From NCBI RefSeq assembly GCF_021223605.1, contig NZ_CP075175.1, forward strand, positions 3,365,501 to 3,429,500: a DNA stretch of 64,000 nucleotides. Direction: 5' to 3'. Below the pieces are notes generated by a model. That model saw only the letters and a list, made by a program, of their open reading frames with translations. It was not told the origin of the DNA and made no database searches. The DNA is from Paenibacillus sp. 481 (GTDB lineage: Bacteria > Bacillota > Bacilli > Paenibacillales > Paenibacillaceae). This document shows, in pieces, positions 13,637-32,168 of the stretch; the stretch's first letter is position 1; each line of letters opens with the position of its first letter. A program made the position numbers and the translations under genes.

Positions 13637-13664
13637 AAGAGTCCGCGTAGGCGGGCTCTTTTTT
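13637..13664 (+). terminator. intrinsic terminator
   Basis: Stem AAGAGTCCGC with GCGGGCTCTT around a GTAG loop, then a T run. Confidence 0.8.
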
Positions 13665-13761
13665 CATGTTCCCACCCGCAACTTATGTTACAATTTCACA
13701 GAAGCAAAAAATAAGATAGTGCCTGTCGATAGTTATAAAAATACAACAGGAGTGGTGGGCA

Positions 13762-15315: not shown

Positions 15316-17589
15316 ATGCGGAAATTAATGATGATTATTTTTAATATGAAAAATGGGGCTGCAAAGCTCCGGGACTTGAAGCAGTGGGCAGCAGGGAAGG
15401 AAAAATACAGCGAAGCAGCGGGAGCAACGGGAAGTGCTTTATTTTTACTGCTGGCGTGGATTGCAGGATATGCAGCGGAGGGTTGGGCCATTCCATTATA
15501 CGTGGCGTCCTACGTCTGCGGCGGCGCATTGAAATTGAAGGATGGCATTATCACGCTCGTGAAGGAGCGTGACTTGGACGTTAATTTACTCATGATTGCA
15601 GCTGCTGCTGGTGCTGCCAGTATTGGTTATTGGGCTGAAGGTGCGGTACTTATTTTTATTTTTGCATTGAGTGGGGCCTTGGAGACGTTTACGATTAATC
15701 GCAGCTCGCGCGATATTTCGGCTTTAATGGAGTTGAAGCCAGAGGATGCTTTACGTATTGTGAATGGCATAGAAGAGCGTGTGCTTGTCGAACAACTGCA
15801 AGTGGGCGATATCGTGTTAGTGAAACCAGCTGAGCGTATTCCGGTTGATGGGGTGATTGAGCAGGGCGGTTCGGCTGTTAATCAGGCTTCTATTACAGGG
15901 GAAAGTGTACCTGTCGACAAAAGTGTCGGGGATGATGTGTTTGCCGGAACGATGAATGGTCAAGGCGTGTTATATGTGAGTGTGGCCAAATCGAGCGAGT
16001 CCACGATGTTTGCTAAAATTGTGCGGCTCGTGCAAGAGGCGCAAAGTGAGACGCCCAAATCACAGCGCGTGGTGGAAAAGTTCGAGCGTATTTATGCGCG
16101 GGCAATTATTTTGTTCACGGTGCTGCTTGTGATGGTGTCGCTGTATGTGCTCGGGCAAAGCTGGGAGGAATCGTTCTATCGCGCGATGGTGTTTCTGGTC
16201 GTGGCGTCACCATGTGCGCTTGTCGCTTCGATTATGCCCGCGACGTTATCAGCGATCTCGAATAGTGCCCGCAAAGGGGTGCTGTTCAAGGGCGGGGCGC
16301 ACTTGGAGCATTTGTCACGTGTGAAGGTGGTCGCGTTCGACAAGACGGGGACGCTAACGCAAGGCACGCCGGATGTGACCGATGTTGCCGTGTATCAGGG
16401 CTATTCAGCGGAACAAGTTATGCAGGCAGCGGCTGTATTGGAGTCTCTGTCGACGCATCCGATTGCACGTGCGATTGTACAGCACTGCGAGTCGCAAGTT
16501 GAAGCGTCGTATGTGCCTAGGGACGCTGTGCTGAATGTTAGGCGGCAAGTTGAATCGTCACACACGGAGCCGCGGCATACGGAGTCGTCGTACATGATGC
16601 CACTGCACACGGAGTCGTCGTACATGATGCCGCCGCACACGGAGCCACCGCAAACGGGCTCGTCGTACATGGAGCCACCGCACGCAAAGTCATCGCACAC
16701 CGTGCGAAACGATGTAGAGCGTGCGCGTGTCGCCTCGTATACTGGGGAGCAAGTTGTCGATAGGCCAAGCGAACTGTACGCTACAGGATGCGATGCGCGG
16801 ATGCAAGCCCAAGGCTGTGACGCAGCTTCACATCGTAAATTGCTGTCGCACATATCCGACTTCCAAGCCTTGACGGGCATGGGGGTTGAGGCTCGGCTAG
16901 ACGGCGTGCAATGGCGCGTCGGCAAGCCAAAGTACATCATGAACCTCGCCTGCATACACAATACGGCGGTGCAGGATGACATCCGTCGTTTGGAACAGCA
17001 GGGCAAGACAGTCGTGCTTGTACAGCGCAATGATGAAGTCGTAGGTCTCATTGCTTTGCAGGATCGCATTCGCCGACAGGCTAAAGCGCTTATTCAACAG
17101 CTCAAGCGGCTTGGCATACAGGCAGCGATGCTGACAGGTGACCAGCAGCAGACAGCCCATGCCATTGCGGAGGAAGCGGGCATTGAGCTCGTGTATGCAG
17201 AGCTCATGCCGGAAGATAAGCTGCGTATTGTAAAGCAGCTCAAGCAACAGTACGGCGCCGTTGCCATGGTCGGCGATGGCGTAAATGATGCGCCAGCCCT
17301 TGCCGCGGCTACAGTTGGCATTGCGATGGGGGCGGCAGGCAGCGACGCCGCCTTGGAAACAGCCGATCTTGTCCTGATGAATGACGACTTGGATCGGATT
17401 AAAGATGCTATTTTGCTAGGCAGAAGAACCCATGCGATCGTAAAGCAGAACATTATATTTGCGAGCATCATTATTTTATCGCTGATTGGTACTAACTTCT
17501 TGTTTGGAATTCCGCTTCCATTAGGTGTAGTTGGGCATGAAGGGAGTACTATACTCGTTATTTTGAACGGATTACGTCTTCTTAAATAA
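15316..17589 (+). CDS. P1B-4-type heavy-metal P-type ATPase (PfeT/ZosA-like)
   Basis: A transition-metal efflux ATPase of the cytoplasmic membrane. The signature of the P1B-4 subgroup (Fe/Co/Zn exporters such as PfeT) is present: SPC at 298-300 in a membrane helix and HEGST at 741-745 in the last helix. Phosphorylation motif DKTGTLT begins at Asp342. TGES (about 196-199) and GDGVNDAPAL complete the machinery. There is no N-terminal metal-binding domain. The start ATG at 15316 has GAGGAG nine bases upstream; ATGs at 15307 and 15310 are too close to it. At 757 residues it is over 100 longer than usual because of a His/Met-rich tandem insertion plus a Cys-containing stretch in the nucleotide-binding domain (about 415-510). 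Fur/PerR-like boxes upstream fit iron or peroxide control. Confidence 0.88.
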   Translation: MRKLMMIIFNMKNGAAKLRDLKQWAAGKEKYSEAAGATGSALFLLLAWIAGYAAEGWAIPLYVASYVCGGALKLKDGIITLVKERDLDVNLLMIAAAAGAASIGYWAEGAVLIFIFALSGALETFTINRSSRDISALMELKPEDALRIVNGIEERVLVEQLQVGDIVLVKPAERIPVDGVIEQGGSAVNQASITGESVPVDKSVGDDVFAGTMNGQGVLYVSVAKSSESTMFAKIVRLVQEAQSETPKSQRVVEKFERIYARAIILFTVLLVMVSLYVLGQSWEESFYRAMVFLVVASPCALVASIMPATLSAISNSARKGVLFKGGAHLEHLSRVKVVAFDKTGTLTQGTPDVTDVAVYQGYSAEQVMQAAAVLESLSTHPIARAIVQHCESQVEASYVPRDAVLNVRRQVESSHTEPRHTESSYMMPLHTESSYMMPPHTEPPQTGSSYMEPPHAKSSHTVRNDVERARVASYTGEQVVDRPSELYATGCDARMQAQGCDAASHRKLLSHISDFQALTGMGVEARLDGVQWRVGKPKYIMNLACIHNTAVQDDIRRLEQQGKTVVLVQRNDEVVGLIALQDRIRRQAKALIQQLKRLGIQAAMLTGDQQQTAHAIAEEAGIELVYAELMPEDKLRIVKQLKQQYGAVAMVGDGVNDAPALAAATVGIAMGAAGSDAALETADLVLMNDDLDRIKDAILLGRRTHAIVKQNIIFASIIILSLIGTNFLFGIPLPLGVVGHEGSTILVILNGLRLLK
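16558..16700 (+). repeat. 30-bp tandem repeat encoding His/Met-rich decapeptides
   Basis: Two almost identical 30-base units encode HTESSYMMPL and HTESSYMMPP, flanked by partial units (HTEPRHTESS before; HTEPPQ, TGSSYMEPP and HAKSSHT after). The array lies inside the N-domain of the metal ATPase and keeps the frame. Confidence 0.85.
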
Positions 17590-17641
17590 ACGCCAAAACA
17601 TACATGCATGCTGACTATTTACGATGATTGATCATGAGGTT

Positions 17642-17699
17642 AAAAAACAGATCACCCTTATCTGGCTAGATTGTACGGATAATGGGTGATCTGTTTTTT
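17642..17699. terminator. terminator after metal ATPase gene
   Basis: A 16-bp perfect stem (AAAAAACAGATCACCC with its complement) closes a longer imperfect hairpin and ends in TTTTTT. Symmetric A and T tracts make it potentially bidirectional. Confidence 0.85.
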
Positions 17700-18119
17700 G
17701 TTATGGCAAATGCTCAGGCATACACTAGTATTCGACATTTTTTTCTCATAACAAGCATCTATAAATCCGCTATCCATTCTCTTTTTTTAGAAAATATTTA
17801 GAATTACGAAATTACATAAAAAGTACATGGAAAGTACATGAAATAATTGTCGTTCAGTGTAAAATATTTAATTGCATAAAGTATCACTAACTTACAAAAA
17901 AATTTAATAATTGACAATTGACACGATGTAGTGAAATATATTACTATCAACTCAACTTCATCAAACTATTTAAGTTTTAATTGTTTTTGTATTTTTTATG
18001 TAGTGTTGGGATCATCAAGAATTATGTGTAAATGAAAACAACCTTCTCTGTAGAACAATGTATGGATCTATGGTGATGAACAGGGGTTGGAGATTTACTC
18101 GATTGACTGATTTAAAGGC
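17700..18119. other. AT-rich intergenic stretch, no gene seen
   Basis: No plausible coding frame. It contains a good promoter-like sequence at 17918-17947 that now points into decayed DNA. Confidence 0.5.
17918..17947 (+). promoter_or_regulatory. promoter-like sequence facing decayed region
   Basis: TTGACA at 17918-17923, 18-base spacer, TACTAT at 17942-17947. It points toward the biosynthetic cluster 1.6 kb downstream. It could be the former promoter of the lost NRPS gene. Activity unknown. Confidence 0.4.
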
Positions 18120-18640
18120 GCCGCATAAGCTTGCCCGATCAGAAATATTTACTTTATGAGCAAGATTACATGGCACATGTAAGCAGCACGATTGATACTA
18201 GGCTTGAGGATATGCATTCTTTATTGCAGCTACAATACTTTTCAATCCGTAAGTAATAATGAGCACAACTTCTTCTGTACCACAAGCTCTCACATCCTGT
18301 AATAGCTCGTTCCAGACTGTGCGGATTCCGTTGGAGCAATGGTATAGGCTAACACTTCTTTAGATCCATCCTCACGAGCACCAGCCTCCAGATATGAAGC
18401 TTCTTTAGAGACGGGCTCACGCTTACGGCATTATAGCTCACATCAGTGTAATCACAAACATAGCGCTTGTCTAACGTTCGCTTAGTGAAGGCATCTATCT
18501 GCGCGACTAAAGCTTTCGTTATATTAGAGGTTGTCTGCGGTGTGGAATGTACGCGTATACCCACCGTTACGGCATTTTTCTGAATTCATCCCTTAGAAAG
18601 TACATTAGTACCTACTACAACTACCTACTACCGACTATTC
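18120..18640 (-). pseudogene. remnant of an IS256-family (mutator) transposase
   Basis: Reading the minus strand in several frames recovers a recognisable IS256-type transposase. One frame gives TPQTTSNITKAL, then AFTKRTLDKRYV and the region around CDYTDVSYNAV. Another gives KEASYLEAGAREDGSKEVLA followed by YTIAPTESAQS. A third gives NELLQDVRACGTEEVVLI, GLKSIVAAIKNAYPQA and YQSCCLHV, matching the family block with the conserved C/H residues. At least two frameshifts and one in-frame stop separate these blocks, so the gene is dead. I did not find terminal inverted repeats. Confidence 0.8.
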
Positions 18641-19029
18641 AACCGAGAATAGAAGCCCATATTTTCTTCTGAGAACAGCCTCTAGTTTATTAACAACCGA
18701 CTTCAAGGAACTTCTTCAGAGCGCCTTAATACGACAGATGAGCGCTACTATAACAAACATCCAACAGAACACACATAAACGCACCAACAGAATCCTCTCA
18801 TGCGATTCTTGAGCTGAAGAACTATCCATGTAACACACTTGAGAACAGCACAGTAAATCTAGGAATAACGAGCGTATTTCTTCATGAATACAATCATTAT
18901 CGTTAATCCGGGACATCTACGGCTTGTTTTCATCAAGGATACTTTATAACTACATTCGATATTCGATACCGATAAACCAATCAAAAGTAAATTTTACATA
19001 TAATAGTGTATGAAGACAAAAGGTGAATG

Positions 19030-19560
19030 CTAGGTGTTTTTAAAAGTGAGGATGCGTTCCAATTCGCAGTAAGCAAGGTTGATATATGGAACGAATAAAT
19101 CAAATTTAGTTCAATATGAGGCTATGTTTTCTTTATTAAATAAGTAAATTAATTTTACGTCTAGTGATATGAACCTAACAGACTTGTCTGGTGAACAATT
19201 GGAATGACATCATTGTGTGGCTTATTTATGGAAATAAATAATTAACTTTTGACTATGAAGATTTACGACCAATGGCTGAGCATCAGCAAGCAACGGTATA
19301 TTCGATCGTTTGGAGCTTCCATCCTGTATGAACAGATGCCAATTATGATGTCGATGTTACCGTTATAAACGGTGAGGATATACAGATTTAGTTCCAATAC
19401 AATGCCGGTGTGTACGATGCTGCATGTATACAAAGAGTAGCGGGTCATTTTTCTCGGACCATTAAACAAGTGTTACATAATCCTCATATTTGCTTAGGGG
19501 ATTTGAATTTAGTAATAACGATGCAGTCAAATGAAATGAATCAAATACGAGGAGCGGGGG
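19030..19560 (+). pseudogene. remnant of an NRPS condensation domain (C-terminal half)
   Basis: The plus strand encodes, with in-frame stops, the end of a nonribosomal peptide synthetase condensation domain. Readable blocks are YEDLRPMAEHQQATVYS, then TDANYDVDVTVINGEDIQI, a stop, then FQYNAGVYDAACIQRVAGHF, and SRTIKQVLHNPHICLGDLNL followed by VITMQSNEMNQI. This matches the usual order (NYDF..., FxYN, hydrophobic helix, linker to the adenylation domain). The AMP-ligase gene starts exactly where an adenylation domain would begin. It suggests the present cluster grew on, or was cut out of, a larger NRPS locus. Confidence 0.7.
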
Positions 19561-19566
19561 GTTGTT

Positions 19567-21027
19567 ATGCTATATCAACGCATGAACCAACTGATGGAAA
19601 TGAATCCACAGGCACCGGCGATATTACTGGAAAATGAAGAAGTGTCTTATCAAGATTTTATAAAGGAGGTGGATAAACTTGTTGATGCCTTTAGAAAGTT
19701 GAATTTGGATGGTTCGACACCATTAGCTATTACGATTAACAAAAGTGAGGTAATCTGGTCGGCTGTTATAGCAGCAAGTCATCTGGGCATTTCAGTAATG
19801 CTAGTAGATCCGAACTTAAAAGAAGAAGAAATGAACAAGCTAATGACGTTGTACAAACCTCATTTTCAATTATCTGAAGATAATAAGCCTGAATGGCAAG
19901 CGGAATCAGCAAGTCAACTCGAATGTTTTGGATCTACTTTTTGGTTAAAAGATATCGGTAAACATGCACAATGTTGGGATGAATATGTAAATCCACCTAA
20001 TCATGAGACTTATTTTGTTCTCCTTACATCGGGATCGACTAAGGTGCCTTCTGCAGTTGTCAAAACGGTGAGCAGTGTTATGGCAGATGGAGAACAAATT
20101 GGTATATCACTTGGCATTACGTCAGAAGATCGGGTGCTATGTGCAGCTCCCGTATATCATGCCTTTGGTTCCATCTGTGGATGTTTTGCTACTTTTTTAA
20201 GAGGAGCATCTGTATCTTTTATTGGGGCTTACGTACTTCCATCTAGCTTAGAGAACAGAATGTATAAGCGTGATTGCAATATCTTAATGGCTTTACCCGC
20301 GCATTATAAAATGATTGTAAAGCATGTTGAGCGTCCGTTAGACCAGATTCGTTTTGCACTTTCTTCAACAGCTCCTTTGACCAAAGAAGTCATTGATTAC
20401 TGTAAAGAGCAATTGAATTTACCTATCTACAATATTTATGGTTCATCAGAAGCGGGTGCCATATCTATTCAGAAAAACCATTTATTCGACAGTCAAGCCG
20501 TTAATTTAGGACAACCTGTCACAGGCGTGCATGTGAAATTCGATTCTAGCGATGTTTCAGAGTTTCACGGTGAAGTAGTGAGTGAATTGTTAATAAAGAG
20601 CCAGTCTCTGGCTAAAGGTTATTTGCAAGTAGAAGGGATAGACGATAACGAGTTTGCCATGGAAGATGGTTGGTGGAGAACTGGGGATCTGGGATATCTC
20701 GATCAAAATAAAGAATTGAACATTGTTGGGCGAGTGAAAACGACCATCAATGTAAATGGAAAAAAAGTTAATGCGTATGAGATTGAAGAAGTGCTTAGTA
20801 GACATGCTGCTGTCTTAGAGGTAGTCGTCGTTGGTATTCCAGATACGACGAGAGGAGAAATACCTGTTGCGTTTGTTGTATTAAAAGAGTCGGTCACTGA
20901 AATTGAGCTCTTAAAATATTGCCAGCTTCATTTATCAGATTATAAAGTTCCGCGGCAAATTGTTATTAAAGACTCTTTACCAAAAACGGCGACGGGTAAG
21001 ATTCGGAGAAAAGAAGTACACATTTGA
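19567..21027 (+). CDS. AMP-dependent acyl ligase (starter-unit activation)
   Basis: An ANL-superfamily enzyme of 486 residues that would activate a carboxylic acid as its adenylate and pass it to CoA or an acyl carrier protein. Core motifs are visible: P-loop LTSGSTKVPSAVVK (about 154-167), NIYGSSEAGAIS (near 292-303), WWRTGDLGYLD (about 365-375), and the C-terminal catalytic Lys in PKTATGKIRRKEV. The start ATG has a G-rich site upstream (AGGAGCGGGGGG). It is the first intact gene of the biosynthetic operon and is followed 16 bases later by the ammonia-lyase gene. The likely substrate is the cinnamate-type acid made by that lyase, an inference from context. Confidence 0.85.
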   Translation: MLYQRMNQLMEMNPQAPAILLENEEVSYQDFIKEVDKLVDAFRKLNLDGSTPLAITINKSEVIWSAVIAASHLGISVMLVDPNLKEEEMNKLMTLYKPHFQLSEDNKPEWQAESASQLECFGSTFWLKDIGKHAQCWDEYVNPPNHETYFVLLTSGSTKVPSAVVKTVSSVMADGEQIGISLGITSEDRVLCAAPVYHAFGSICGCFATFLRGASVSFIGAYVLPSSLENRMYKRDCNILMALPAHYKMIVKHVERPLDQIRFALSSTAPLTKEVIDYCKEQLNLPIYNIYGSSEAGAISIQKNHLFDSQAVNLGQPVTGVHVKFDSSDVSEFHGEVVSELLIKSQSLAKGYLQVEGIDDNEFAMEDGWWRTGDLGYLDQNKELNIVGRVKTTINVNGKKVNAYEIEEVLSRHAAVLEVVVVGIPDTTRGEIPVAFVVLKESVTEIELLKYCQLHLSDYKVPRQIVIKDSLPKTATGKIRRKEVHI

Positions 21028-21043
21028 GGGGGCGTTATCAATC

Positions 21044-22684
21044 ATGAATGAAGTATTAGTGAGCGAGCAAGATGCACAACAGAAAAACAAGCAAGATATC
21101 GTATTGAATGGAAATGAGTTAACGATTGAAGATATTGTAAATGTAGCCAAAGGTGAACATGAATCCTTTATGTTTACGGTGTCAGATGAGGCATTGGATC
21201 GTATTGAGAAATGCAATGAGTTAAAACACGAAATTATTAATCAGCAGCAGCCTATCTACGGTGTTACAACTGGTTTTGGTGATAGTGTAATGAGACAAAT
21301 TTCACCACAAAAAACAATTGATTTGCAACGAAATTTAGTTCGATTTCTCTCTTGTGGTGTAGGTCCTAACTCCGAAGAAAGTGTTGCTAGAGCAACGATG
21401 TTAATACGGACAAATTGTTTGATTAAAGGCAATTCAGCTGTCCGAGTAGATGTCATTAATCAACTTATTCAGTACATGGAAAGAGGAATTACTCCTGTTA
21501 TACCTGAGCGAGGCTCTGTAGGAGCTAGTGGAGACTTAGTTCCATTAAGTTATTTGGCTGCTATCTTATCAGGAGAAGGACAAGTCCTTTACAAAGGTGA
21601 GTCCCGCGACATCAAAGAAGTACTGAAAGTAGAAGGGCTGCAACCATTAGTATTGGAAGCAAAAGAAGGGCTCGCTCTAGTAAACGGAACTTCGTTTATG
21701 TCTGCATTTGCTTGCCTAGCCTACAAAGATGCTGAAGAAATTGCATTCGTAGCTGATATTTGTACAGCGATGGTTTCAGAAGCATTGCTTGGAAATCGAG
21801 GTCATTTCTACTCTTTTATACACGAGCAGAAACCGCATTTCGGTCAAATGACGAGTGCTCAAAATATTTATTTGATGTTAGAAGGCTCCCAGTTATCTAA
21901 AGAGTATTCGCAAATTATTAAAACGAATGAAAGTATTGAATCCAAAACGTATGTTCAATTAACACAAAGCATTCAGGATCGCTATTCCATCCGCTGTGCG
22001 CCGCATGTTACAGGGGTATTATACGATACATTATCATGGGTTAAAAATTGGCTCGAAATCGAAGTGAACTCCACGAATGATAATCCGGTGTTTGATATCG
22101 AAACGCGCGAAGTGTACAACGGGGGTAATTTTTACGGTGGACATGTGGTGCAAGCTATGGACTCCTTAAAAATAGCAGTTGCGAATATTGCTGACCTGTT
22201 GGATCGACAATTACAGCTAGTCGTAGACGAGAAATTCAATAAAAATTTAACGCCAAATCTGATTCAAAATTATGAAGAGAATGATTATGAATTAGGTTTA
22301 CATCATGGTTTTAAAGGGATGCAAATTGCATGCTCTGCCTTAACGGCTGAAGCTTTAAAGCTAACTAATCCTGCCAGTGTGTTTTCCAGATCTACGGAGG
22401 CACATAATCAAGACAAAGTAAGTATGGGTACGATTGCATCAAGAGATGCGCGTACGATTGTTGAATTAACGCAACATGTAGCAGCTATTCATCTTATTGC
22501 ACTCTGCCAAGCTTTAGATTTGCGTGGTGCAGATAAGACATCTCCACAAACCGCTGTCATTTACAACATGATTAGAGAAGTGACTCCTTTTGTAGACCGC
22601 GATCGCCCCTTAGACAATGATATTCAAGCAGTGGTTGAGTTGATCCGTTCCGGAAAATTAAAAAAAGCAATTCAAACTAATTAG
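21044..22684 (+). CDS. aromatic amino acid ammonia-lyase (HAL/PAL/TAL family)
   Basis: An MIO-dependent enzyme that removes ammonia from an aromatic amino acid to give an arylacrylate. The MIO-forming tripeptide Ala161-Ser162-Gly163 lies in the canonical GSVGASGDLVPLSYLAA. Other conserved parts are YGVTTGFGD near the N-terminus, YSIRCAPHVTGV, and NSTNDNPVFD. The selectivity position has Phe101-Leu102 (LVRFLSCG), as in phenylalanine-type PALs rather than the His of tyrosine-type enzymes, so cinnamate is the likely product, though an aminomutase cannot be excluded. The ATG at 21044 is chosen over an upstream frame because GAGGGGG precedes it. Length 546. A histidine-catabolic role is unlikely: no hut genes are near. 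Confidence 0.88.
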   Translation: MNEVLVSEQDAQQKNKQDIVLNGNELTIEDIVNVAKGEHESFMFTVSDEALDRIEKCNELKHEIINQQQPIYGVTTGFGDSVMRQISPQKTIDLQRNLVRFLSCGVGPNSEESVARATMLIRTNCLIKGNSAVRVDVINQLIQYMERGITPVIPERGSVGASGDLVPLSYLAAILSGEGQVLYKGESRDIKEVLKVEGLQPLVLEAKEGLALVNGTSFMSAFACLAYKDAEEIAFVADICTAMVSEALLGNRGHFYSFIHEQKPHFGQMTSAQNIYLMLEGSQLSKEYSQIIKTNESIESKTYVQLTQSIQDRYSIRCAPHVTGVLYDTLSWVKNWLEIEVNSTNDNPVFDIETREVYNGGNFYGGHVVQAMDSLKIAVANIADLLDRQLQLVVDEKFNKNLTPNLIQNYEENDYELGLHHGFKGMQIACSALTAEALKLTNPASVFSRSTEAHNQDKVSMGTIASRDARTIVELTQHVAAIHLIALCQALDLRGADKTSPQTAVIYNMIREVTPFVDRDRPLDNDIQAVVELIRSGKLKKAIQTN

Positions 22685-22700
22685 AAGTGGAGTTTGAGAC

Positions 22701-22946
22701 ATGACAGAACAAACTATGAAAGCAACGCTGCGAACCATTATTTCCGACGTTACTGAAATTAATGATTATGAAAATGATGAAAAATTCAATGAGCGATTAG
22801 GTGTTGATTCCATGATGATCATTGAAATCGCTGTACGCATTGAGAAAGCATTCAACATCACTGTACCGGAACATTACCTTCCTCGACTTACTAACTTAGA
22901 CGAAACTCATCTTGCTATTAATGAACTTGTTTATCAACTGAAATAA
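22701..22946 (+). CDS. acyl carrier protein 1
   Basis: An 81-residue acyl carrier protein. The phosphopantetheine Ser lies in RLGVDSMMIIEI, with acidic helices around it. It resembles the second ACP of the operon (23767) closely through the segment DSMM-x-IEI-x-VRIEKAF, so the pair probably arose by duplication. It lies 16 bases after the lyase gene. It would carry the aryl starter or the growing polyketide chain. Which ACP serves which step cannot be read from the sequence. Confidence 0.88.
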   Translation: MTEQTMKATLRTIISDVTEINDYENDEKFNERLGVDSMMIIEIAVRIEKAFNITVPEHYLPRLTNLDETHLAINELVYQLK

Positions 22947-23004
22947 CCTTCACCAGCACCATCATCAAGCCGCGACAACATTAACTCAATAGAGGTGGAT
23001 TTTA

Positions 23005-23736
23005 TTGTTTACGGATCAAACATTTTTGGTTACAGGTGGCACTCGTGGAATTGGAAAAGCAACTGTTCAAGCGCTCATTGAACGAGGAGCAAATGTTGCT
23101 TTTACATATCAAAGTAATCGAGTGCTCGCGGAACAAATTTGTGAAGAGCTTGGACAAGGCAATAACATTTTGGCGGTAGAAGCAGATGTGCAAGATTTTA
23201 CTCAAGCCCAAAAAACGATTGCACAAGTGAAAGAGCGGTTTAATCAATTGCATGGAGTCGTGCTAAATGCCGGAATTGCTAGAGATAAACCTTTTTATAT
23301 GATGAGCGAAGAAGATTGGGATGTTACGATCCAGACGAATCTTAAAGGAACATTTAATTATGCAAGAGCTTCGGTGTTTGATTTCATTAAACAAAAATAC
23401 GGCCGGATCGTGTGTGTGAGTTCAGTAAGTGCGATGAAGGGTGTATTAGGGCAAGTCAACTATTCTACTACCAAGGCTGGCCAAATCGGGTTTATCAAAT
23501 CGTTAGCTAAAGAGGTTTCCAAATTTGGGATTACCGTAAATGCAGTGGCTCCAGGATTTATCGCTACGGATATGTGGAATGACATCCCAGACGATCGCAA
23601 AGCGAAAATTTTGGGCGAAATCCCGCTTGGCAGAGCTGGAGAGGCTTCGGAAGTGGCAGATGCAATTTGTTTTTTATTGCAGTCCAATTACATCACAGGT
23701 AGTGTGATTGCTGTCGATGGCGGAATACTGATTTAA
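23005..23736 (+). CDS. 3-oxoacyl-ACP reductase (FabG-like SDR)
   Basis: A classical short-chain dehydrogenase of 243 residues that reduces beta-ketoacyl-ACP. The cofactor motif TGGTRGIGKAT is at about 10-20, NAG near residue 89, and the catalytic Ser and YxxxK are in VSSVSAMKGVLGQVNYSTTKAG. The end (ITGSVIAVDGGILI) is FabG-like. A TTG start is used, with AGAGGTGG upstream. It sits between the two ACP genes, so it is the ketoreductase of this assembly line and not the housekeeping FabG. Confidence 0.88.
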   Translation: MFTDQTFLVTGGTRGIGKATVQALIERGANVAFTYQSNRVLAEQICEELGQGNNILAVEADVQDFTQAQKTIAQVKERFNQLHGVVLNAGIARDKPFYMMSEEDWDVTIQTNLKGTFNYARASVFDFIKQKYGRIVCVSSVSAMKGVLGQVNYSTTKAGQIGFIKSLAKEVSKFGITVNAVAPGFIATDMWNDIPDDRKAKILGEIPLGRAGEASEVADAICFLLQSNYITGSVIAVDGGILI

Positions 23737-23766
23737 ACCATAAACCATTCAAATGGAGGAACGAAT

Positions 23767-24024
23767 ATGACTACGAATTTGACGAGTGAGAATACAAAAG
23801 AAGTGATCAGAACCATTGTTGCGGAAATTGCAGAAACTACGGAATTTCAGGATACCGATCCGTTTAACGAAACATTGAATATTGATTCCATGATGGTTAT
23901 CGAAATTGTCGTTCGCATTGAAAAAGCATTCAAGATTTCAATTCCAGAAAGCTACATCCCTCGTTTTACAGATTTAAATGAGTCCGTTCTTGTGGTACAG
24001 GAAATCGCGTCGGGTGAAAAGTAA
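23767..24024 (+). CDS. acyl carrier protein 2
   Basis: An 85-residue acyl carrier protein with the phosphopantetheine Ser in NIDSMMVIEI and a PESYIPRFTDL segment that mirrors ACP 1. The ATG has ATGGAGGA upstream. The stop codon overlaps the start of the ketosynthase gene (TAATG), which suggests translational coupling. It probably carries the chain during elongation by the adjacent KS/CLF pair. Confidence 0.88.
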   Translation: MTTNLTSENTKEVIRTIVAEIAETTEFQDTDPFNETLNIDSMMVIEIVVRIEKAFKISIPESYIPRFTDLNESVLVVQEIASGEK

Positions 24025-25241
24025 TGAAAAAACGGATCGCAATTACGGGTCTTGGTGTTCTTTCCCCAATCGGATCTGGAGTTAATAAGTTTTGGGAAGC
24101 ATTAATTGCAGGTGAGATTGGTACGAGAACCATAACATCTTTTGACACTTCAATATACAGTGTTAATCAGGGAGGGGAAGTGCTGGATATGGATCCAGCC
24201 TCCTTCTTTCGGCAGTTAGACCCTAACGTATTGGGGAGAACAACGCAATTAGCTGTGGCTTCATCATGGATGGCATGGGATGATGCTCAGGTACCAAGCG
24301 ATTATTATTCCAGCGAGCGGGTTGGTGTATGTATAGGCACTGGAATTGGTAACAGCTCTATTTTGGAAAATAGCCATGATATTGAATTAAGCGGGGAACA
24401 AAAAGTGCGTTCGGAATATGTAGCTAACTATCCCTTAGCTTCTGTTGCAAATGCAGTTTCTACTGAATTAGGGTTTGAAGGACCCAGCCTAACAATATCT
24501 ACTGCCTGTGCATCTGGTAATTATGCGATTAGTCGGGGGATAGATTTGATCCACGAAGGAGTTCTAGATGTAGCTGTTGTAGGTGGAGCGGATGGCATGT
24601 CTAGATTTTGCTATACCGCATTTCATCGTCTGGGAGCGATTGCACCCGAAGTATGCCAACCATTTACAAATGATCGAAAAGGGATGATCGTAAGTGAAGG
24701 GGCAGCTAGTTTAGTATTGGAAGATATGGAAAAAGCAATTGAACGTGGTGCTACCATTTATGCTGAACTTGTAGGATATGGCCTTGCTTGTGACGCGTAC
24801 CATCTTACTGCACCTCATGTTGAAGGATTAGGTGCAGTACTTGCCATGAATAGAGCCATCGAAGATGCTGATATTGAGAGAAATGAGGTCTCTTATATTA
24901 ATGCCCATGGCACTGGAACGAAAGCAAATGACTCGAGTGAGTCGCTGGCCGTTTACACCACTTTTGGGGAACAAGCCGATTTAATTCCTGTTAGTTCGAT
25001 TAAATCTATGCTAGGCCATACGATGGGAGCCTCGAGTGCAATTGAAGCAGTGGCTTGTACCTTGGCTATTCGCCATTCTGTTATTCCTCCAACGATGAAC
25101 GTATCCGAACTCGATGCTGATTGTGTGAAAAATGTTGTACCTAACCAAGCGGTTCATCAACCAGTCAAAGTTGCAATTAGCAATTCCTTTGCTTTTGGAG
25201 GCAATATTTCCACTATTGTGTTGAGAGGAGTAACGGAATGA
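24024..25241 (+). CDS. beta-ketoacyl-ACP synthase (active KS subunit)
   Basis: A FabF-type condensing enzyme of 405 residues. The complete Cys-His-His triad is visible: Cys162 in STACASGNYA, His295 in NAHGTGTKAND, and His332 in KSMLGHTMGA. It would condense malonyl-ACP with the aryl-acyl chain. Its stop overlaps the start of the next gene, which encodes a related but catalytically incomplete protein. That overlapping KS/KS-like arrangement is the hallmark of type II polyketide synthases and not of primary fatty acid synthesis. Confidence 0.9.
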   Translation: MKKRIAITGLGVLSPIGSGVNKFWEALIAGEIGTRTITSFDTSIYSVNQGGEVLDMDPASFFRQLDPNVLGRTTQLAVASSWMAWDDAQVPSDYYSSERVGVCIGTGIGNSSILENSHDIELSGEQKVRSEYVANYPLASVANAVSTELGFEGPSLTISTACASGNYAISRGIDLIHEGVLDVAVVGGADGMSRFCYTAFHRLGAIAPEVCQPFTNDRKGMIVSEGAASLVLEDMEKAIERGATIYAELVGYGLACDAYHLTAPHVEGLGAVLAMNRAIEDADIERNEVSYINAHGTGTKANDSSESLAVYTTFGEQADLIPVSSIKSMLGHTMGASSAIEAVACTLAIRHSVIPPTMNVSELDADCVKNVVPNQAVHQPVKVAISNSFAFGGNISTIVLRGVTE

Positions 25242-26383
25242 ATCACCAAGAAGATCGTATCGTAGTTACAGGAATGGGGACCGTTTCAGCTCATGGTGTT
25301 GACGATCAGGCTTTATGGTCCTCTATTCGGAATGGGGATCTTCCACCTCGTCATACACACTCGAATCCATCAGAGACCCCTCCAGTTGTTAGGGTAGATA
25401 AGTTTCAAGCCGCTGATATTTTAGGTAAAAAAGGATTGCAATTTATGCAACCTTCTTCATTGTTCTTATGTGCTGCCTCACTAGCAGCTTTAAGCAATGC
25501 GTCTATCGATTTAAACACGGTAGACCCTGATCAATTAGGCATTGTAATAAGCACGAATTACAGTGGTTTTAAAGTAAGTTCTCAATTCGACCAAACGACA
25601 ATAACGGAGGGTCCTAAACATATAAGCCCTATGGAAGTACCCAATGGGCTTGTTAACGCACCCGCCTCTCATCTAGCTATTCGTATTCAATCAAGAGCAT
25701 GCAACACGACGATTTCTTCTGGATTTTGCGCAGGATTGGATGCGATTGGTTATGGTATTAGCATGCTCAGAAAGAAAAATGCGGATTTCGTCGTTGTTGG
25801 CGGTACAGATGAGTGGAATGATGAGGTGCATTGGTATTACAACCATGCCGGATTATTGTCTGCTGGCCCAAAGGGGAGTTTAATTCCGGGTGAAGGCGCA
25901 GCAGTTGTTGTGTTAGAGCGGTATGAAGATGCGATTCGGCGTAAAGCAAATATATTAGGAGAAATTACATCTTGGTATTCTTGTTTTGCACCAGTTGCTA
26001 ATCAAGAAGCACGAATTAAAGGGTTTATGAGATGCATGGATACCGTGATTCAAAACGGTACCGCTCCAAATCATGAGGTTGATCTTGTTATTACAAGTAC
26101 AAATGGACTTGTTGATCAGGATCATATCGAATTAACGGCCATAAATGAAAAGTTCAAGCAAGTTCCGATCTTGGATATCAAAAAAACAATTGGGGAAACA
26201 AGCGGCGCGGGCGGACTGTTTCAAGTTATTTCATCGATTCACGCCATAAAAGATAACGCGATTCCGAGTCATGCCTTAGTTAACGGTTCTTCTAACGAAA
26301 CCGATTCTATTAGCACTGTACTTTTAACTGCAAATGATTTATTTGGAGGGATCAGTTCCGTTCTTGTAAAGGCAGTAAGCTAA
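25238..26383 (+). CDS. KS-like chain-length-factor-type partner, lacking catalytic residues
   Basis: A 381-residue ketosynthase homologue. Aligned by eye to its neighbour, the nucleophile position is Phe163 (ISSGFCAG; a Cys follows at 164 but is out of register), the first His position lies in a STNGLVDQD segment without His, and the second His is replaced by Glu in KKTIGETSGAGG. It therefore should not catalyse condensation alone. By analogy with chain length factors in type II PKS it would pair with the active KS and set chain length. It starts within the last codons of the KS gene (ATGA overlap). Confidence 0.82.
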   Translation: MNHQEDRIVVTGMGTVSAHGVDDQALWSSIRNGDLPPRHTHSNPSETPPVVRVDKFQAADILGKKGLQFMQPSSLFLCAASLAALSNASIDLNTVDPDQLGIVISTNYSGFKVSSQFDQTTITEGPKHISPMEVPNGLVNAPASHLAIRIQSRACNTTISSGFCAGLDAIGYGISMLRKKNADFVVVGGTDEWNDEVHWYYNHAGLLSAGPKGSLIPGEGAAVVVLERYEDAIRRKANILGEITSWYSCFAPVANQEARIKGFMRCMDTVIQNGTAPNHEVDLVITSTNGLVDQDHIELTAINEKFKQVPILDIKKTIGETSGAGGLFQVISSIHAIKDNAIPSHALVNGSSNETDSISTVLLTANDLFGGISSVLVKAVS

Positions 26384-26404
26384 AATTAGAGGAGGTTAAC
26401 ACGT

Positions 26405-26863
26405 ATGTCCGCGAAAGTTTATTTTGATGAAATTAAACGTTTATTGCCACAAGACTACCCATTTATTTTCGTCGATCGTGTAGAGCATTACGAAGAGTTT
26501 AAATCGATTACTTGTGTGAAAAATATTACAGGAAATGAGTGGGCTGTAACGGGACACTTTCCTAAACAAGCTATTTTTCCAGGTGTGCTTATAAATGAAG
26601 GATTTGGTCAAGCAACGATACTATTAATCAAGTTGAGTCAAAAAAATGAAGAGCAGCGGGTCATGGAAATTAACAGTGACTCGACCTTTTTAATGACCTC
26701 AGCAAAGATAAGATACTTAAAAACAATTGTGCCCGGGGATCAGCTGTATTATCACTGTAATATCGTTAAATTGACTAGCAATTCAGGCGTTATTGAAGGG
26801 ATTGCGAAGATCGATAATGAGGAAATTGCCGCGAAAGCAGAATTGGTTTTTTGTGTAAAATGA
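26405..26863 (+). CDS. hotdog-fold 3-hydroxyacyl-ACP dehydratase (FabZ-like)
   Basis: A 152-residue hotdog-fold protein. The active-site His is in GHFPKQAIFPGVLINEGFGQ, with the Glu of the FabZ type in the same segment. It follows the KS pair and is preceded by GAGGAGG. It would dehydrate the beta-hydroxyacyl intermediate formed by the ketoreductase. No enoyl reductase is encoded in the cluster, so repeated cycles would leave conjugated double bonds, a polyene. Confidence 0.85.
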   Translation: MSAKVYFDEIKRLLPQDYPFIFVDRVEHYEEFKSITCVKNITGNEWAVTGHFPKQAIFPGVLINEGFGQATILLIKLSQKNEEQRVMEINSDSTFLMTSAKIRYLKTIVPGDQLYYHCNIVKLTSNSGVIEGIAKIDNEEIAAKAELVFCVK

Positions 26864-26896
26864 TTCTTCCGTTTATAACCGTTAGGGGTGAATAAA

Positions 26897-29800
26897 ATGA
26901 GTTTAGACGATATTCAGTTGTATCCATTAACTCAGGCACAGCAGCGCATTTGGAATACGGAGTTGTTGTATCCGAATACATCAGTGTGCATTCTGGCGGG
27001 TGCAATAAAAATAGAAGGACAACTGCATAGAGACTTGTTGGAACAAGCTATTAACTTGGCTGTGCAGCAGCATGATGCATTCAGAATCATGTTGATCAAT
27101 GACCAAAATGAAATGAAGCAATACTTTGAAACCTACTCCTATCAAACCATTGACTATATTGATTTTAGTGCAAATAACGATGAACGCCATGTGGATGATT
27201 GGCTGCATGAACACAAATTAAAGCCTATGCAGTTAATTCAATCTGCGTTGTATCACTTTTTAATGTTTAAGACGGATCATGAACAATATGGATATTGCAT
27301 AAAAATTCATCACATTATAGCTGATGGAATTTCATTGGAAATTATCACAAATCAAATTACTTCAAACTATTTTCAATTGTTAAGCAATAATCCAGTAGCA
27401 AGTCATGAACCCAAATCGTATATCGATTATATTTCTGCGGAACAAGATTATCGTTTTTCTGATCGATTTCAACAGGATCGTAATTACTGGATAAACACAT
27501 TTGACACGCTGCCTGCTTTTATCGAATTTAAAGCCTATCAACCTATCCTCTCAAGTACTGCTGCGAACAGAGCAAGCTTTACCATTAAGGGTGGGTTGTA
27601 CCAAGATTTGAAACAATTTTGCCAGGATCAGCAAATTAATGTGTATGCCTTCTTTTTGTCTGTGTTATATACGTATATTCATAAAGTGTCGAACGAGCAA
27701 GATATGGCAATTGGAGCTGTTTATTCAAATCGGTCGACGAAAAAAGAAAAAGGTACAATGGGCATGTATGCGAGTACAGTTGCCGCTAGAATAGCTATCG
27801 ATCCTGAAGAGCAATTCGGTTCATTTTTACAACGTGTTTCCCTTAATTTATCTAAAATTATGCTGCATCAAAAATATCCCTACAATCAATTAATTCAAGA
27901 TTTAAGAGTCGAACATCACAATATAGAGTTGCAGCGACTGTTTAGTATTATTATGGAATACCGAGTAATGAACTTCTTAAAATCGGATCAAACACAAAAC
28001 GATAAAAAGCTAGCATCTCAGCACCATTTTTGTGGACATGAAGTCAACGATTTACTTATCCGAATAGAGGAAGAGCTTTCTGAACATGTGTTACATATTC
28101 ATTTGGATTACCGTACATGTGTATTCGAAGAACATGAAATAAATAAATTGATTGAATATATGTCCGATATTGTGCGATATATCATTGGAAATAGTCAGCA
28201 AAAAATATCAACGTTTTTCCTTATTCATGAAGAGGAGAAACAAATCATTTTAAATGAGTTTAATGATACAACAATAGCGTATCCCCAACATAAGACGATC
28301 CAGCAATTGTTTGAAGAGCAGGTGCAGCGCACACCTGATCGTATTGCTGTAGCATTTGAGGGTCAAACGCTGACTTATCAGGAGTTAAATGAGAAATCCA
28401 ATCAGGTAGCTCGAGCGTTAAGGGCGGAAGGTGTAAAAGTTGATCAATTAGTAGGTATTATGGTTGAGCGCTCTTTGGAAATGATGATTGGCATGTTGGG
28501 GATTTTAAAAGCAGGTGGTGCATACGTACCTATAGATCCTGAGTATCCTCAAGAGCGTATCCATTATATTTTAAACGATTCTAATGTGGATGTATTATTA
28601 CTGCAACATCATTTGCAAGAACGAGTAAGTTATGAAGGCAAAGTGATCACTTTAGAGGGTGAACATTTTCACCATGAAGATCGTTCGAACCTGCCACACC
28701 TTTCACAACCAAATGATTTGGCCTATGTCATTTATACATCAGGTACAACAGGGAAACCAAAAGGCGCTATGATCGAACATCGCAACGTCGTCCGATTAGT
28801 CAAAAATACAAATTCTCTTCCATTGAACGATCAAGTGCGTATTTTACAAACAGGCTCTATCGTGTTCGATGCCTCTACATTTGAAATATGGGGAGCCATG
28901 CTTAATGGTGGTCAGCTGCACCTAACGGAACACGCTAATATTATTAATGCAGTGGTGTTAAAACAATTAATAAATACGAACGATATCAACTTGATGTTTT
29001 TGTCTACAGCATTATTTAACCAACTCGTACAACAAGACCATACGTTATTTGAACGTTTACAAACCTTAATTGTAGGCGGAGAAGAACTATCTATAGCCCA
29101 TGCTAATAAATTGATACTTCATTACCCTACAATAAATTTGATTAATGGTTACGGGCCTACAGAAAATACAACATTTTCAACCACGTATCCGATCCATGGA
29201 GAGCAGCTGAAGAAGGCTCCTATTGGACGCCCTATTTCGAATTCCACTGCCTATATCGTAGATCAAGGTATGAACTTACAACCAATTGGTGTGTATGGGG
29301 AATTGATTGTGGGTGGAGACGGTGTGGCGCGAGGATATTTAAATCAGCCTGAACTTACGGCTCAAAAGTTTGTGAATGGTTTGTTTAAAGACGGTGAGCG
29401 CTGCTATCGAACAGGAGATTTAGCTCGTTGGCTACCTGATGGTAACATTGAATTTTTAGGCCGAATGGATCACCAAGTGAAAATTCGGGGATACCGAATT
29501 GAATTAGGTGAGGTCGAGACGTCACTGTTAAGTGTAGATTGCGTTCAAGAGGCAACCGTAGCTACACACGAAGTTAAAAATGGTGAGAAAGTGATATGTG
29601 CCTATTACGTGGCCAAGCAGTCGCATACGATCCATGAAATTAAGGCTGCATTGTCAGAGAAATTGCCTAGTTATATGATACCGACTTACTTTGTGGAGTT
29701 AGACCAAATTCCGCTCACGCCAAATGGAAAAGTTGATCGTAAGTCATTGCCAGCTCCTGAAAGTGGTATGCAAATGGGAACGGAATACGTACCGCCTCAA

Positions 29801-31267
29801 ACACCAGCTGAAATCATCATGTCTAACGTATGGGAAGAAACGCTTGGACTAGAGAAAGTAGGCATTACAGATAGCTTTTTCGATCTCGGAGGACACTCAT
29901 TAAAAATTATTGAGACGTTGCCGAAATTAACTCGAGCAGGACTACAGGTCACGATTAAGGACTACTATGATTTAAAAACGATCGCAGCTATTACGTCAAA
30001 AATAAGTGGTGAACAGCCAGAAATTCGTACAGACGAACAAGTCAACGAGATGATTTGGAATAAACCGCCTAAAAAACGGCTGACGGATGAGCAAATAAGC
30101 AAGCCATTTAATCACAGCGGTCATCTATTACTAACAGGCGCAACAGGATATTTAGGGGCCCATCTGTTAGAACAATTATTACGAACAACGGATTGCACCA
30201 TTACGTGCATTATCCGTGGTCATTCCGATCAAGAAGTGACGGAAAGACTAGTAAATAAAGTGCAGTATTATTTTAAAAACGACGATGTTATTCCATGGTT
30301 GAATCAACGTGTCAGCGTTCGATGCGGGGATTTAAGTCAGCCCAATTTAGGTTTGGCAGAAGCCGTTTATAACGATTTAAAAGTTACCGTAACTGAAGTG
30401 ATTCATGCAGCCGCGTTAACGAAACATTTTGGAACTCAAGAAGAGTTTACATTGGCCAATGTGAGTTCGGTTGAGCAGCTATTGAAATTTGTAGGGCATG
30501 ATAAGAAGTTTCATCATACGTCTACCATAAGTGTGTCCGGTCTTCAAGTCGATGAGGATGAAGATGTGTTATTTACGGAACACGACTTTTATATTAAACA
30601 GGACTATTTGTGCAATGTGTACATCGAAACCAAATTTTTAGCTGAAAAATTAATATATGATTATGTATCGACAGGTACGGATGCAGTCATTTATCGAATA
30701 GGTAATTTAACAAACCGATATACTGACGGTCAGCATCAACAAAATATGAACGAAAACAGTTTCTTGAAACGATTAAAGTTTATGATCAAATACGGTGTGA
30801 TCACAGATCTATTCCCAACCGGACTAGAATTTACACCAGTAGATAAATGCAGTGAAGCTATGCTGAACATCATCACGCAGCGGGGAGATTCAGCCGAGCA
30901 TTATGTGTTCCACTTATCGAATGATAAGACGCTTGAAACGGAACAATTTATCGAAATGTTAGATGAACACGGTTATAAAGTGGAACTCATGAAGCAGCAA
31001 CGTTTTGAACAGATTGTGGCTCTGAATCAGGAAGATGAACAGTTCAATCAAGAGCTTCAATTTATGATGGGGTACGGTTCTGACGTTGACGTCCATTCTC
31101 GCTATCGCTCAAAAGTGAACATAGACTCTACTTTTACGAAGCAGCGATTAGCACAGCTGCAATGGCACTGGCCAGACATTAATCAAACATACATTAATCA
31201 AGTACTCCAGCATATGTTCGCTACGGGTTACATTCGTAAGGAAGAGCTTCAAAATTTGCTCGTATGA
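26897..31267 (+). CDS. single-module NRPS: condensation-adenylation-carrier-reductase
   Basis: A 1456-residue NRPS. The condensation domain (about 1-440) has HHIIADG from His138. The adenylation domain (about 455-970) has YTSGTTGKPKGA, NGYGPTENTTF, YRTGDLARW and NGKVDRKSLP. The carrier Ser1001 is in LGGHSLK. The terminal reductase (about 1075 on) has TGATGYLGAHLL near 1079 and YIETKFLAEK. Read by eye against GrsA, the specificity residues are D-A-F-F-I-G-G-T-F-K, close to codes I associate with branched aliphatic residues such as Val. The ATG at 26897 follows TAGGGGTGAATAAA. It likely joins the polyketide acyl chain to one amino acid and releases an aldehyde or alcohol. Confidence 0.9.
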   Translation: MSLDDIQLYPLTQAQQRIWNTELLYPNTSVCILAGAIKIEGQLHRDLLEQAINLAVQQHDAFRIMLINDQNEMKQYFETYSYQTIDYIDFSANNDERHVDDWLHEHKLKPMQLIQSALYHFLMFKTDHEQYGYCIKIHHIIADGISLEIITNQITSNYFQLLSNNPVASHEPKSYIDYISAEQDYRFSDRFQQDRNYWINTFDTLPAFIEFKAYQPILSSTAANRASFTIKGGLYQDLKQFCQDQQINVYAFFLSVLYTYIHKVSNEQDMAIGAVYSNRSTKKEKGTMGMYASTVAARIAIDPEEQFGSFLQRVSLNLSKIMLHQKYPYNQLIQDLRVEHHNIELQRLFSIIMEYRVMNFLKSDQTQNDKKLASQHHFCGHEVNDLLIRIEEELSEHVLHIHLDYRTCVFEEHEINKLIEYMSDIVRYIIGNSQQKISTFFLIHEEEKQIILNEFNDTTIAYPQHKTIQQLFEEQVQRTPDRIAVAFEGQTLTYQELNEKSNQVARALRAEGVKVDQLVGIMVERSLEMMIGMLGILKAGGAYVPIDPEYPQERIHYILNDSNVDVLLLQHHLQERVSYEGKVITLEGEHFHHEDRSNLPHLSQPNDLAYVIYTSGTTGKPKGAMIEHRNVVRLVKNTNSLPLNDQVRILQTGSIVFDASTFEIWGAMLNGGQLHLTEHANIINAVVLKQLINTNDINLMFLSTALFNQLVQQDHTLFERLQTLIVGGEELSIAHANKLILHYPTINLINGYGPTENTTFSTTYPIHGEQLKKAPIGRPISNSTAYIVDQGMNLQPIGVYGELIVGGDGVARGYLNQPELTAQKFVNGLFKDGERCYRTGDLARWLPDGNIEFLGRMDHQVKIRGYRIELGEVETSLLSVDCVQEATVATHEVKNGEKVICAYYVAKQSHTIHEIKAALSEKLPSYMIPTYFVELDQIPLTPNGKVDRKSLPAPESGMQMGTEYVPPQTPAEIIMSNVWEETLGLEKVGITDSFFDLGGHSLKIIETLPKLTRAGLQVTIKDYYDLKTIAAITSKISGEQPEIRTDEQVNEMIWNKPPKKRLTDEQISKPFNHSGHLLLTGATGYLGAHLLEQLLRTTDCTITCIIRGHSDQEVTERLVNKVQYYFKNDDVIPWLNQRVSVRCGDLSQPNLGLAEAVYNDLKVTVTEVIHAAALTKHFGTQEEFTLANVSSVEQLLKFVGHDKKFHHTSTISVSGLQVDEDEDVLFTEHDFYIKQDYLCNVYIETKFLAEKLIYDYVSTGTDAVIYRIGNLTNRYTDGQHQQNMNENSFLKRLKFMIKYGVITDLFPTGLEFTPVDKCSEAMLNIITQRGDSAEHYVFHLSNDKTLETEQFIEMLDEHGYKVELMKQQRFEQIVALNQEDEQFNQELQFMMGYGSDVDVHSRYRSKVNIDSTFTKQRLAQLQWHWPDINQTYINQVLQHMFATGYIRKEELQNLLV

Positions 31268-31337
31268 ATTTCATTTTCTTAGCTTTAATAGGGTAGATAA
31301 GCCTTGCTAGAGTTAGGAGTTAAGAGAGGTAAAAGGA

Positions 31338-32117
31338 ATGGATCTGAAAAATAAAGTCGTGTTGATTACAGGCGCTTCAACGGGAATAGGAGCGGAAGCA
31401 GCTCGTTTAATGGTGAATAAAGGTGCGAAAGTCATTATGACAGCTCGTTCTGTTCAAAAATTGCAGGACCTTGCAGACCGGTTAGGCCCAAATGCTTTTT
31501 TTTATCCCCTTGATGTGTCCAATGGCACGGAAGTTAACGATGTAATACAAAAGGTTATTCACGATCATGGTCGAATCGATGTACTTGTAAATAATGCAGG
31601 TACTATTCAATGCGGTCATTTTGTGGATTTGCCATTGGAATCGTTTGAACAAATGATGGATGTTAATTATTTTGGTACAGTACGTTGTCTTAAGGCCGTG
31701 GTACCACATATGATTCATAACAAAAGTGGACACATCGTCAATGTTGCCTCTATGGCAGGGAAGTTTGGACAAGGAACATTTTCCGCATATTCGCCTTCCA
31801 AACATGCTCTATTAGGATTGACGAATAGTTTGAGACAAGAATTACAAGGAACAGGAATTCATTTTACAGCTATTAATCCAACGTTTGTTAATACAGCCTT
31901 TGTGGATCAAGCAGATCCAACAGGGGGCTTAAAACGAAAAAATAACTCAAAGATGTTACAACCTGTTGATGTCGCAAATAAAATTGTGCTCGCAGTTGAA
32001 AGAAATATTAGGGAAATCGACTTGCCATTTTTAATGACGATGTCTGGGAAGTTACTATTTCATTTATTCCCTAAATGGTTTGATAAATTTTCAATTAGTG
32101 GACCTGAAAATAAGTAA
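31338..32117 (+). CDS. short-chain dehydrogenase/reductase
   Basis: A 259-residue classical SDR. Cofactor motif TGASTGIGAEAA is at about 11-22, NNAG near 86-89, and the catalytic YSPSK motif follows the VASMAGKFGQG Ser region. It differs from the FabG of the cluster in its C-terminal part (LKRKNNSK, then VANKIVLAVERN), which resembles DltE/retinol-dehydrogenase-like SDRs. Located 70 bases after the NRPS gene and before the operon terminator, it probably tailors the released aldehyde, for example by reduction to an alcohol. That role is inferred. Confidence 0.82.
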   Translation: MDLKNKVVLITGASTGIGAEAARLMVNKGAKVIMTARSVQKLQDLADRLGPNAFFYPLDVSNGTEVNDVIQKVIHDHGRIDVLVNNAGTIQCGHFVDLPLESFEQMMDVNYFGTVRCLKAVVPHMIHNKSGHIVNVASMAGKFGQGTFSAYSPSKHALLGLTNSLRQELQGTGIHFTAINPTFVNTAFVDQADPTGGLKRKNNSKMLQPVDVANKIVLAVERNIREIDLPFLMTMSGKLLFHLFPKWFDKFSISGPENK

Positions 32118-32136
32118 ATTCAAGCTTAATAAGCGA

Positions 32137-32168
32137 GCCGAACACTAAAAATGTTCGGTTTTTTTTTG
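32137..32168 (+). terminator. terminator of the biosynthetic operon
   Basis: Stem CCGAACA / TGTTCGG with a 7-base A-rich loop, then a run of about nine T. Confidence 0.85.

Follow-up and report, generated by a model that had tools for sequence, protein, structure and literature searches.

What might a bacterium make with an ammonia-lyase, a set of stand-alone polyketide enzymes and a reductive peptide synthetase module packed into one operon? This question is raised by a locus of Paenibacillus sp. 481 that lies at positions 19567-32117 of the 64,000-nucleotide stretch analyzed here (the window), itself positions 3365501-3429500 of a single 5.69-Mb contig (NZ_CP075175.1). A preliminary description had presented the locus as a tight operon for an aryl-polyene-like type II polyketide synthase (PKS) with a reductive nonribosomal peptide synthetase (NRPS). 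All the genes it named are present and intact, ten on one strand, and its boundaries are exact, being the first base of the ligase gene and the last base of the final dehydrogenase gene; only its listing of the lyase ahead of the ligase had to be reversed. The order is AMP-forming ligase, lyase, acyl carrier protein (ACP), ketoreductase (KR), second ACP, ketosynthase (KS), a dead KS resembling a chain-length factor (CLF), FabZ-type dehydratase (DH), a condensation-adenylation-thiolation-reductase (C-A-T-R) NRPS and a short-chain dehydrogenase (SDR). These genes fill 12.5 kb with intergenic gaps of -4 to +70 bp, and their domain matches are beyond chance, the best Pfam E-values running from 1.4e-8 (second ACP) to 4.6e-169 (lyase). 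Neither an enoyl reductase (ER), whose absence had been stated before, nor an acyltransferase was found among the operon genes. Judged from these sequences, the operon is intact and most likely functional, and we regard it as fairly probable that its product is an amino aldehyde or amino alcohol bearing an N-(phenyl-polyenoyl) group; its parts are of known kinds, and their combination appears to be undescribed.

Which starter unit would feed such a pathway is indicated by the first two genes. The ligase (19567-21027, + strand) matches PF00501 and PF13193 and carries the core motifs, and the 4-methylideneimidazole-5-one (MIO) ammonia-lyase that follows (21044-22684, +; PF00221) has its most likely start at ATG 21044 and not at TTG 20960, because GAGGGGG precedes this ATG and the choice leaves a 16-bp gap. 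The lyase keeps the MIO triad ASG (in GASGD) and the loop Tyr (in IYGV), and alignment gives FL (in RFL) as its selectivity pair. FL is stated to mark phenylalanine ammonia-lyase (PAL) and YH to mark tyrosine ammonia-lyase (PMC5651878); where that paper gives a full 19-residue motif, the features scored here were the triad, the loop Tyr and the FL pair. A lyase at E<=1e-95 occurs in 44 of 398 genomes of the class, and the pair was read in five of this set (the host, G519, G549, G485 and G596), in the congener G001 and in the HutH-like lyase of the host itself. FL is common to the lyases of the window, G001, G519, G549 and G485, whereas the HutH-like control has SH and the G596 lyase, 61-62% identical to that of the window, has YH; a tyrosine- or histidine-type lyase was thus rejected. 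In G596 the YH-bearing gene (locus L065, contig G596:C5, 8432-10039) lies near a KR-like gene and a weakly ligase-like gene, perhaps another aromatic-acid pathway.

Beyond the genus, the lyases of this sample that come closest to the window lyase are those of G519, G549 and G485, at 77-79% identity, and in each case the gene comes after two large KS/KR-similar proteins and a 459-aa C-domain-like protein. Basiliskamide has been proposed to derive from a trans-AT PKS with an NRPS-like domain (PMC3940840), to which these neighborhoods would fit, and the three genomes are presumably kin of Brevibacillus laterosporus. For BlPAL, the enzyme of that species, specific activity was measured with L-Phe, and the same report putatively links it to the cinnamate component of basiliskamides (PMC5651878). 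Because the window lyase combines the FL pair with 77-79% identity to lyases of basiliskamide-like clusters, it is expected to be selective for phenylalanine, with plain cinnamate as the starter. The same neighborhoods, in which the lyase gene ends operons of large multidomain PKS-like proteins next to a lone C-like protein, together with the putative basiliskamide link of the B. laterosporus lyase (PMC5651878), suit another arrangement, in which an acetate-primed polyenoyl chain receives cinnamate as a separate acyl decoration, as proposed for basiliskamide. We think this improbable for the operon studied here, which has one C domain only, in cis with A-T-R, and no second acyltransferase; moreover its ligase and two ACPs fit aryl priming, and 13 of the 14 related cassettes without lyase and ligase (described below) have a single ACP.

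How the cinnamoyl unit would be extended is suggested by the next six genes, all on the + strand. The two ACPs (22701-22946 and 23767-24024; PF00550, each with a DSM site) flank the KR (23005-23736), a FabG-like SDR matching PF13561 that keeps S-Y-K and scores 260.7 bits against TIGR01830, below the cut-off of 297.75. The KS (24024-25241) has an intact Cys-His-Lys-His set, while in the adjoining CLF-like protein (25238-26383) the catalytic Cys is replaced by Phe, the two His by Ser and Glu, and Lys alone is kept (F-S-K-E vs. C-H-K-H), bearing out the dead partner of the preliminary description. An active KS next to a KS-like protein without the catalytic Cys is what defines a type II KS/CLF pair. 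The hot-dog DH (26405-26863; PF07977) carries GHFP and FPGVLxxE and reaches 118.3 bits against NF000582, above the cut-off of 113. Since KS, KR and DH resemble FabF, FabG and FabZ, one could think of storage lipids or of ordinary fatty acids of the saturated kind, a reading that we hold to be very improbable, given the lack of an ER, the paired dead KS, the lyase and reductive NRPS of the same operon and the other KS-like (FabF-like) and FabZ-like genes elsewhere in the host genome.

What kind of KS/CLF pair this might be was approached through solved structures. Among PDB entries the KS matched 9s5h_B best (397 bits) and 6kxd_A second (326.8 bits), followed by FabFs, with 6qsp and 7f27 at 182 and 170 bits; a CLF profile matched 9s5h_C best (293 bits vs. 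201 bits for the next). We take 6kxd_A to be Iga11 of the ishigamide system, and 6qsp and 7f27 to be aryl-polyene (APE) ketosynthases. Membership in the Gram-negative APE family was rejected, the KS being too distant by bit score, so that the label "aryl-polyene-like" holds for the biosynthetic logic and fails for ancestry, for which 9s5h_B and Iga11 are far nearer; as to the Iga11 lineage, the second place of 6kxd_A is a bit-score ranking rather than a tree. The host genome also holds another set of polyene-type genes (locus L067, G000:C1:2706000-2725900, 7726-14099), comprising an acyltransferase, a KR, a FabZ, a double KS fused into one protein of 862 aa and a GcvT-like protein, a set that resembles the streptococcal granadaene operon. 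Granadaene-type (cyl) clusters are marked by a fused double KS and a GcvT-like aminomethyltransferase, both absent from the window operon. Because the first and second halves of the L067 double KS are 39% and 26% identical to the window KS, respectively, this set is regarded as a separate system. CLF-like matches also lie in open frames of 820-839 aa in G004, G006, G007, G012 and G015.

How widespread is the cassette? CLF searches, run at E<=1e-40 on family genomes and at E<=1e-75 on order and phylum genomes, gave matches in 6 of 394, 7 of 392 and 1 of 398 genomes, respectively, the last being the host itself. A scan of named genomes returned 19 loci, of which 11 (L030-L040, 35-43% identity) were judged to be members; the other eight (L041-L048, 21-31%) were dropped: in six of them the matched gene is closer to the KS of the window than to its CLF, and the other two (L046 and L047) hold distant CLF-like genes beside a KS. 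After merging duplicates, 16 species remain, a sparse family within Bacillota and Chloroflexota: the host, G001, Cohnella endophytica, G273, Tumebacillus lacus, P. silvestris, Cytobacillus, P. oenotherae, a Brevibacillus metagenome-assembled genome, two Ktedonobacteria, P. kobensis, P. xylaniclasticus, Shouchella, G1167 and G1177. KR, ACP, KS and CLF are neighbors in all 16, although in L036 an extra gene and another ACP lie in between, this being the one cassette with two ACPs among the 14 that have no lyase and ligase. In the 11 aligned pairs the KS always keeps C-H-K-H and the CLF Cys is always replaced, by Gln in eight, by Ala in P. silvestris and by Phe in the window and G001, the two lyase-linked clusters. 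A DH adjoins the cassette in 13 of the 16 species, and seven show C or A domains of an NRPS (the host, G001, Cohnella, P. silvestris, Cytobacillus, G1167 and G1177). Lyase and ligase are found in the host and G001 only, within the DNA compared, of which L037 and L038 offer short stretches. Among ten neighbor proteins of other cassettes, from one scan, are amine-oxidase-like, FAD-dependent, methyltransferase and ABC proteins.

The sister cluster of G001, which belongs to the same genus (L015/L049, G001:C1:3361711-3383973), occupies a different chromosomal place and repeats the order ligase-lyase-ACP-KR-ACP-KS-CLF-C at 57, 77, 49, 68, 51, 72, 59 and 48% identity. Because order and identity are kept, the block from ligase to C domain is probably a selected functional unit. 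Downstream the two differ: G001 has a C-A-T-C NRPS and then an NRPS of 3616 aa that holds three A domains and ends in a thioesterase, four A domains in total, and no R domain was found in its NRPSs. The starter block has thus stayed together while the release end differs, which speaks for a functional unit and at the same time calls for caution over polyene length. The G001 product may be a 3-hydroxy-aryl or short cinnamoyl lipopeptide, and a starter block kept there without a dedicated DH would suit one or few cycles, giving a 3-hydroxy-5-phenylpent-4-enoyl starter. Extended to the window, this would mean a single extension, yielding a colorless 5-phenylpenta-2,4-dienoyl amide of the amino aldehyde or alcohol instead of a polyene pigment. 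Such an outcome seems unlikely to us, although it deserves to be kept in mind: an intact DH adjoins the window CLF, as in most cassettes, and a dedicated CLF is usually tied to iteration.

To which amino acid would the chain be attached, and how would it leave? The NRPS (26888-31267, +) is a single C-A-T-R module (PF00668, PF00501, PF00550, PF07993) with the motifs HHIIADG, GGHSLK, TGATGYLG and YIETK. Its A-domain pocket, DAFFIGGTFK, is one residue off DAFWIGGTFK, which we take to be the valine code, and valine is the most likely substrate. The R domain matches PF07993 at E 3.8e-44 and scores 196.4 bits against TIGR01746, below the cut-off of 213.35; a C-A-T-R module whose reductase retains its T, Y and K is the mark of a reductive NRPS. 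Reduction is expected because TGATGYLG, the Thr in HHTST and YIETK are all kept, and the same residues led us to reject a dead R domain with release of the Dieckmann type. The last gene of the operon encodes an SDR (31338-32117, +; PF00106) with GxxxGIG and S-Y-K, which is intact and may finish the aldehyde (aldehyde/alcohol tailoring) or act elsewhere.

Put together, the route that we propose runs as follows. PAL would convert L-Phe to trans-cinnamate, as its selectivity residues and close relatives suggest, and the AMP-ligase would activate cinnamate and load it onto an ACP, probably ACP1 as the starter carrier. With malonyl-ACP2 as the elongation carrier, KS/CLF, KR and DH would then add at least one C2 unit, each cycle leaving a new conjugated double bond because there is no ER. 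The C domain would pass the chain to the amine of the T-bound amino acid, predicted to be valine, and the R domain would reduce the thioester to an aldehyde, which R or the SDR may take on to an alcohol; the predicted product is N-(phenylpolyenoyl)-valinal or -valinol. Malonyl transfer and phosphopantetheinylation would be supplied from elsewhere in the genome, where two phosphopantetheinyl transferase frames were found, one of 250 aa (Sfp size) at G000:C1:4686648 and one of 139 aa. The cinnamate-type starter, the KS/KR/DH cycles free of an ER, the acylation of a single amino acid and the reductive release of the preliminary description are all supported by motifs and relatives, and the ordinary saturated fatty acid that it had named as its refuting case is unlikely on the grounds given above.

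Several points weigh against this route. In G001 no DH lies beside KS/CLF, and only one other FabZ-like gene (34%) was found genome-wide; on these two grounds, the PKS of this lineage might not make polyenes at all. No adjacent DH was found in G1167 and G1177 either. The CLF carries Phe where Gln is usual; the roles of ACP1 and ACP2 and the substrate of the ligase are guesses; and the valine call comes from a ten-residue code read against a GrsA segment.

How would the operon be expressed, and how did it come to this site? A purine-rich stretch, read by eye, precedes eight of the ten proposed starts, the two without a clear one being the KS, whose frame overlaps that of ACP2, and the NRPS, which may in fact start a few codons inside the called frame. 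On the 3′ side a terminator-like hairpin (32135-32161, +; a 10-pair stem followed by a T run) sits in the expected gap; sites of this kind occur by chance (7 found vs. 8.8 expected), and this one has the longest stem of the seven. No leader RNA or riboswitch was matched in Rfam at gathering score within 13000-37000, nor was a close plasmid copy found by megablast (roughly >=85% identity) among 72,556 plasmid records.

The operon is flanked by a P-type ATPase gene and a Na+/H+ exchanger gene, and these two are 183-192 bp apart in five of the 18 other genus genomes (G001, G005, G007, G011 and G014). Their spacing is about 2 kb in G013 and G018 and, estimated from partial matches, roughly 1-2 kb in G016 and G017; in the remaining nine genomes the pair lies on different contigs (two) or one or both genes are lacking at the thresholds used (seven). 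Between the ATPase and the operon, an interval of about 2 kb (17590-19566) holds decayed pieces of a Mutator-family (IS256-like) transposase (18105-18600, -) and, directly upstream of the operon, the C-terminal part of a decayed NRPS condensation domain (19326-19547, +; PF00668 E 8.5e-10). The transposase pieces match PF00872 in consecutive profile order (115-172, 169-210 and 208-280) in three minus frames, the last at E 8.7e-11 and the others at 0.006 and 0.008, a level also reached by an unrelated DUF1218 (0.008). The condensation remnant shares 31% identity with an NRPS of G001 across 74 aa (E 4e-11), and 20 simple shuffles gave one hit at E<=0.01 in total. Read most simply, this pattern means that the operon entered this place, or that the site underwent rearrangement, once these species had separated; the DNA would have been gained or shifted as one block next to the insertion-sequence remnant, the pattern being visible and the direction presumed. 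Against it stands the alternative that the block was lost from the congeners instead of gained here. The flanking ATPase gene itself carries at 16492-16800 an insert of about 100 residues with a G+C of 0.59, lacking in three of three aligned relatives, and a 30-bp tandem repeat lies inside it (16569-16644).

What would such an operon add to what is known? Most of the reduced polyene-type type II PKSs known come from Streptomyces and from Gram-negative bacteria, and we judge the present case, from its gene content, to be aryl-primed reducing type II PKS-NRPS biosynthesis in a PAL-fed form. At 12.5 kb, and having a single A domain and a single release domain, it is small enough for whole transfer into Bacillus subtilis, and its starter, chain length and release could be tested separately, for which the G001 sister, with the same starter block, no adjacent DH and thioesterase release, offers a natural comparison. 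Protease inhibition is common among N-acyl amino aldehydes, and some polyene amides of amino alcohols inhibit respiration, activities that make the product worth isolating. That no characterized Gram-positive equivalent exists, as the preliminary description supposed, was not contradicted in the open-access literature, in which we found no characterized Bacillota cluster of this make-up; this is a weak absence, as most subscription papers fall outside that scope. A catalogue of KS-CLFs covers Firmicutes and Chloroflexi among others, and the words Paenibacillus and Bacillus are absent from it (PMC10132072).

Several related systems can be set beside the operon. The G001 cluster matches it from ligase to C domain, including the PAL-type FL pair and the Cys to Phe change of the CLF, and parts from it in the lack of an adjacent DH and of an R domain. 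Among solved proteins, chains B and C of 9s5h/9s5i, a 3-oxoacyl-ACP synthase pair, are the best match for both KS and CLF; no paper on them was found in the open-access literature, yet a solved KS/CLF-like pair points to a relative under study. The systems of the ishigamide type (Iga11/Iga12) are actinobacterial, unlike that of the window. In this type and other Streptomyces systems, stand-alone KS/CLF, KR, DH and ACP make an unsaturated chain for an amide, and in the Streptomyces polyene and cinnamoyl systems the aromatic ring, where present, is PKS-made and not supplied via PAL; we know of no C-A-T-R module of this kind in them. Gram-negative APE clusters (ApeO/ApeC) start from an aromatic acid with a ligase, KS/CLF, KR and DH and no ER, a gene set also present here, but the window KS is far off (182 and 170 vs. 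327-397 bits), release is by an NRPS and the host is Gram-positive. With BlPAL the operon shares a PAL, compared through the 77-79% identical FL lyases of similar clusters rather than the BlPAL sequence, and the partner differs, being a trans-AT PKS there, as proposed (PMC3940840), and a type II PKS here. Our broader proposal is a tentative one, possible rather than probable: that a Bacillota lineage built an exchangeable aryl-polyene starter unit, PAL plus KS/CLF cassette, for differing NRPS endings, here giving the N-(phenyl-polyenoyl) valinal/valinol class. This class would be a type II PKS counterpart of the phenalamides. Phenalamide and myxalamid of myxobacteria are likewise polyenoyl amides in which the amino acid is reduced and a terminal R domain effects release, and they differ from the window system in their type I modular PKS, their alaninol and their unrelated host.

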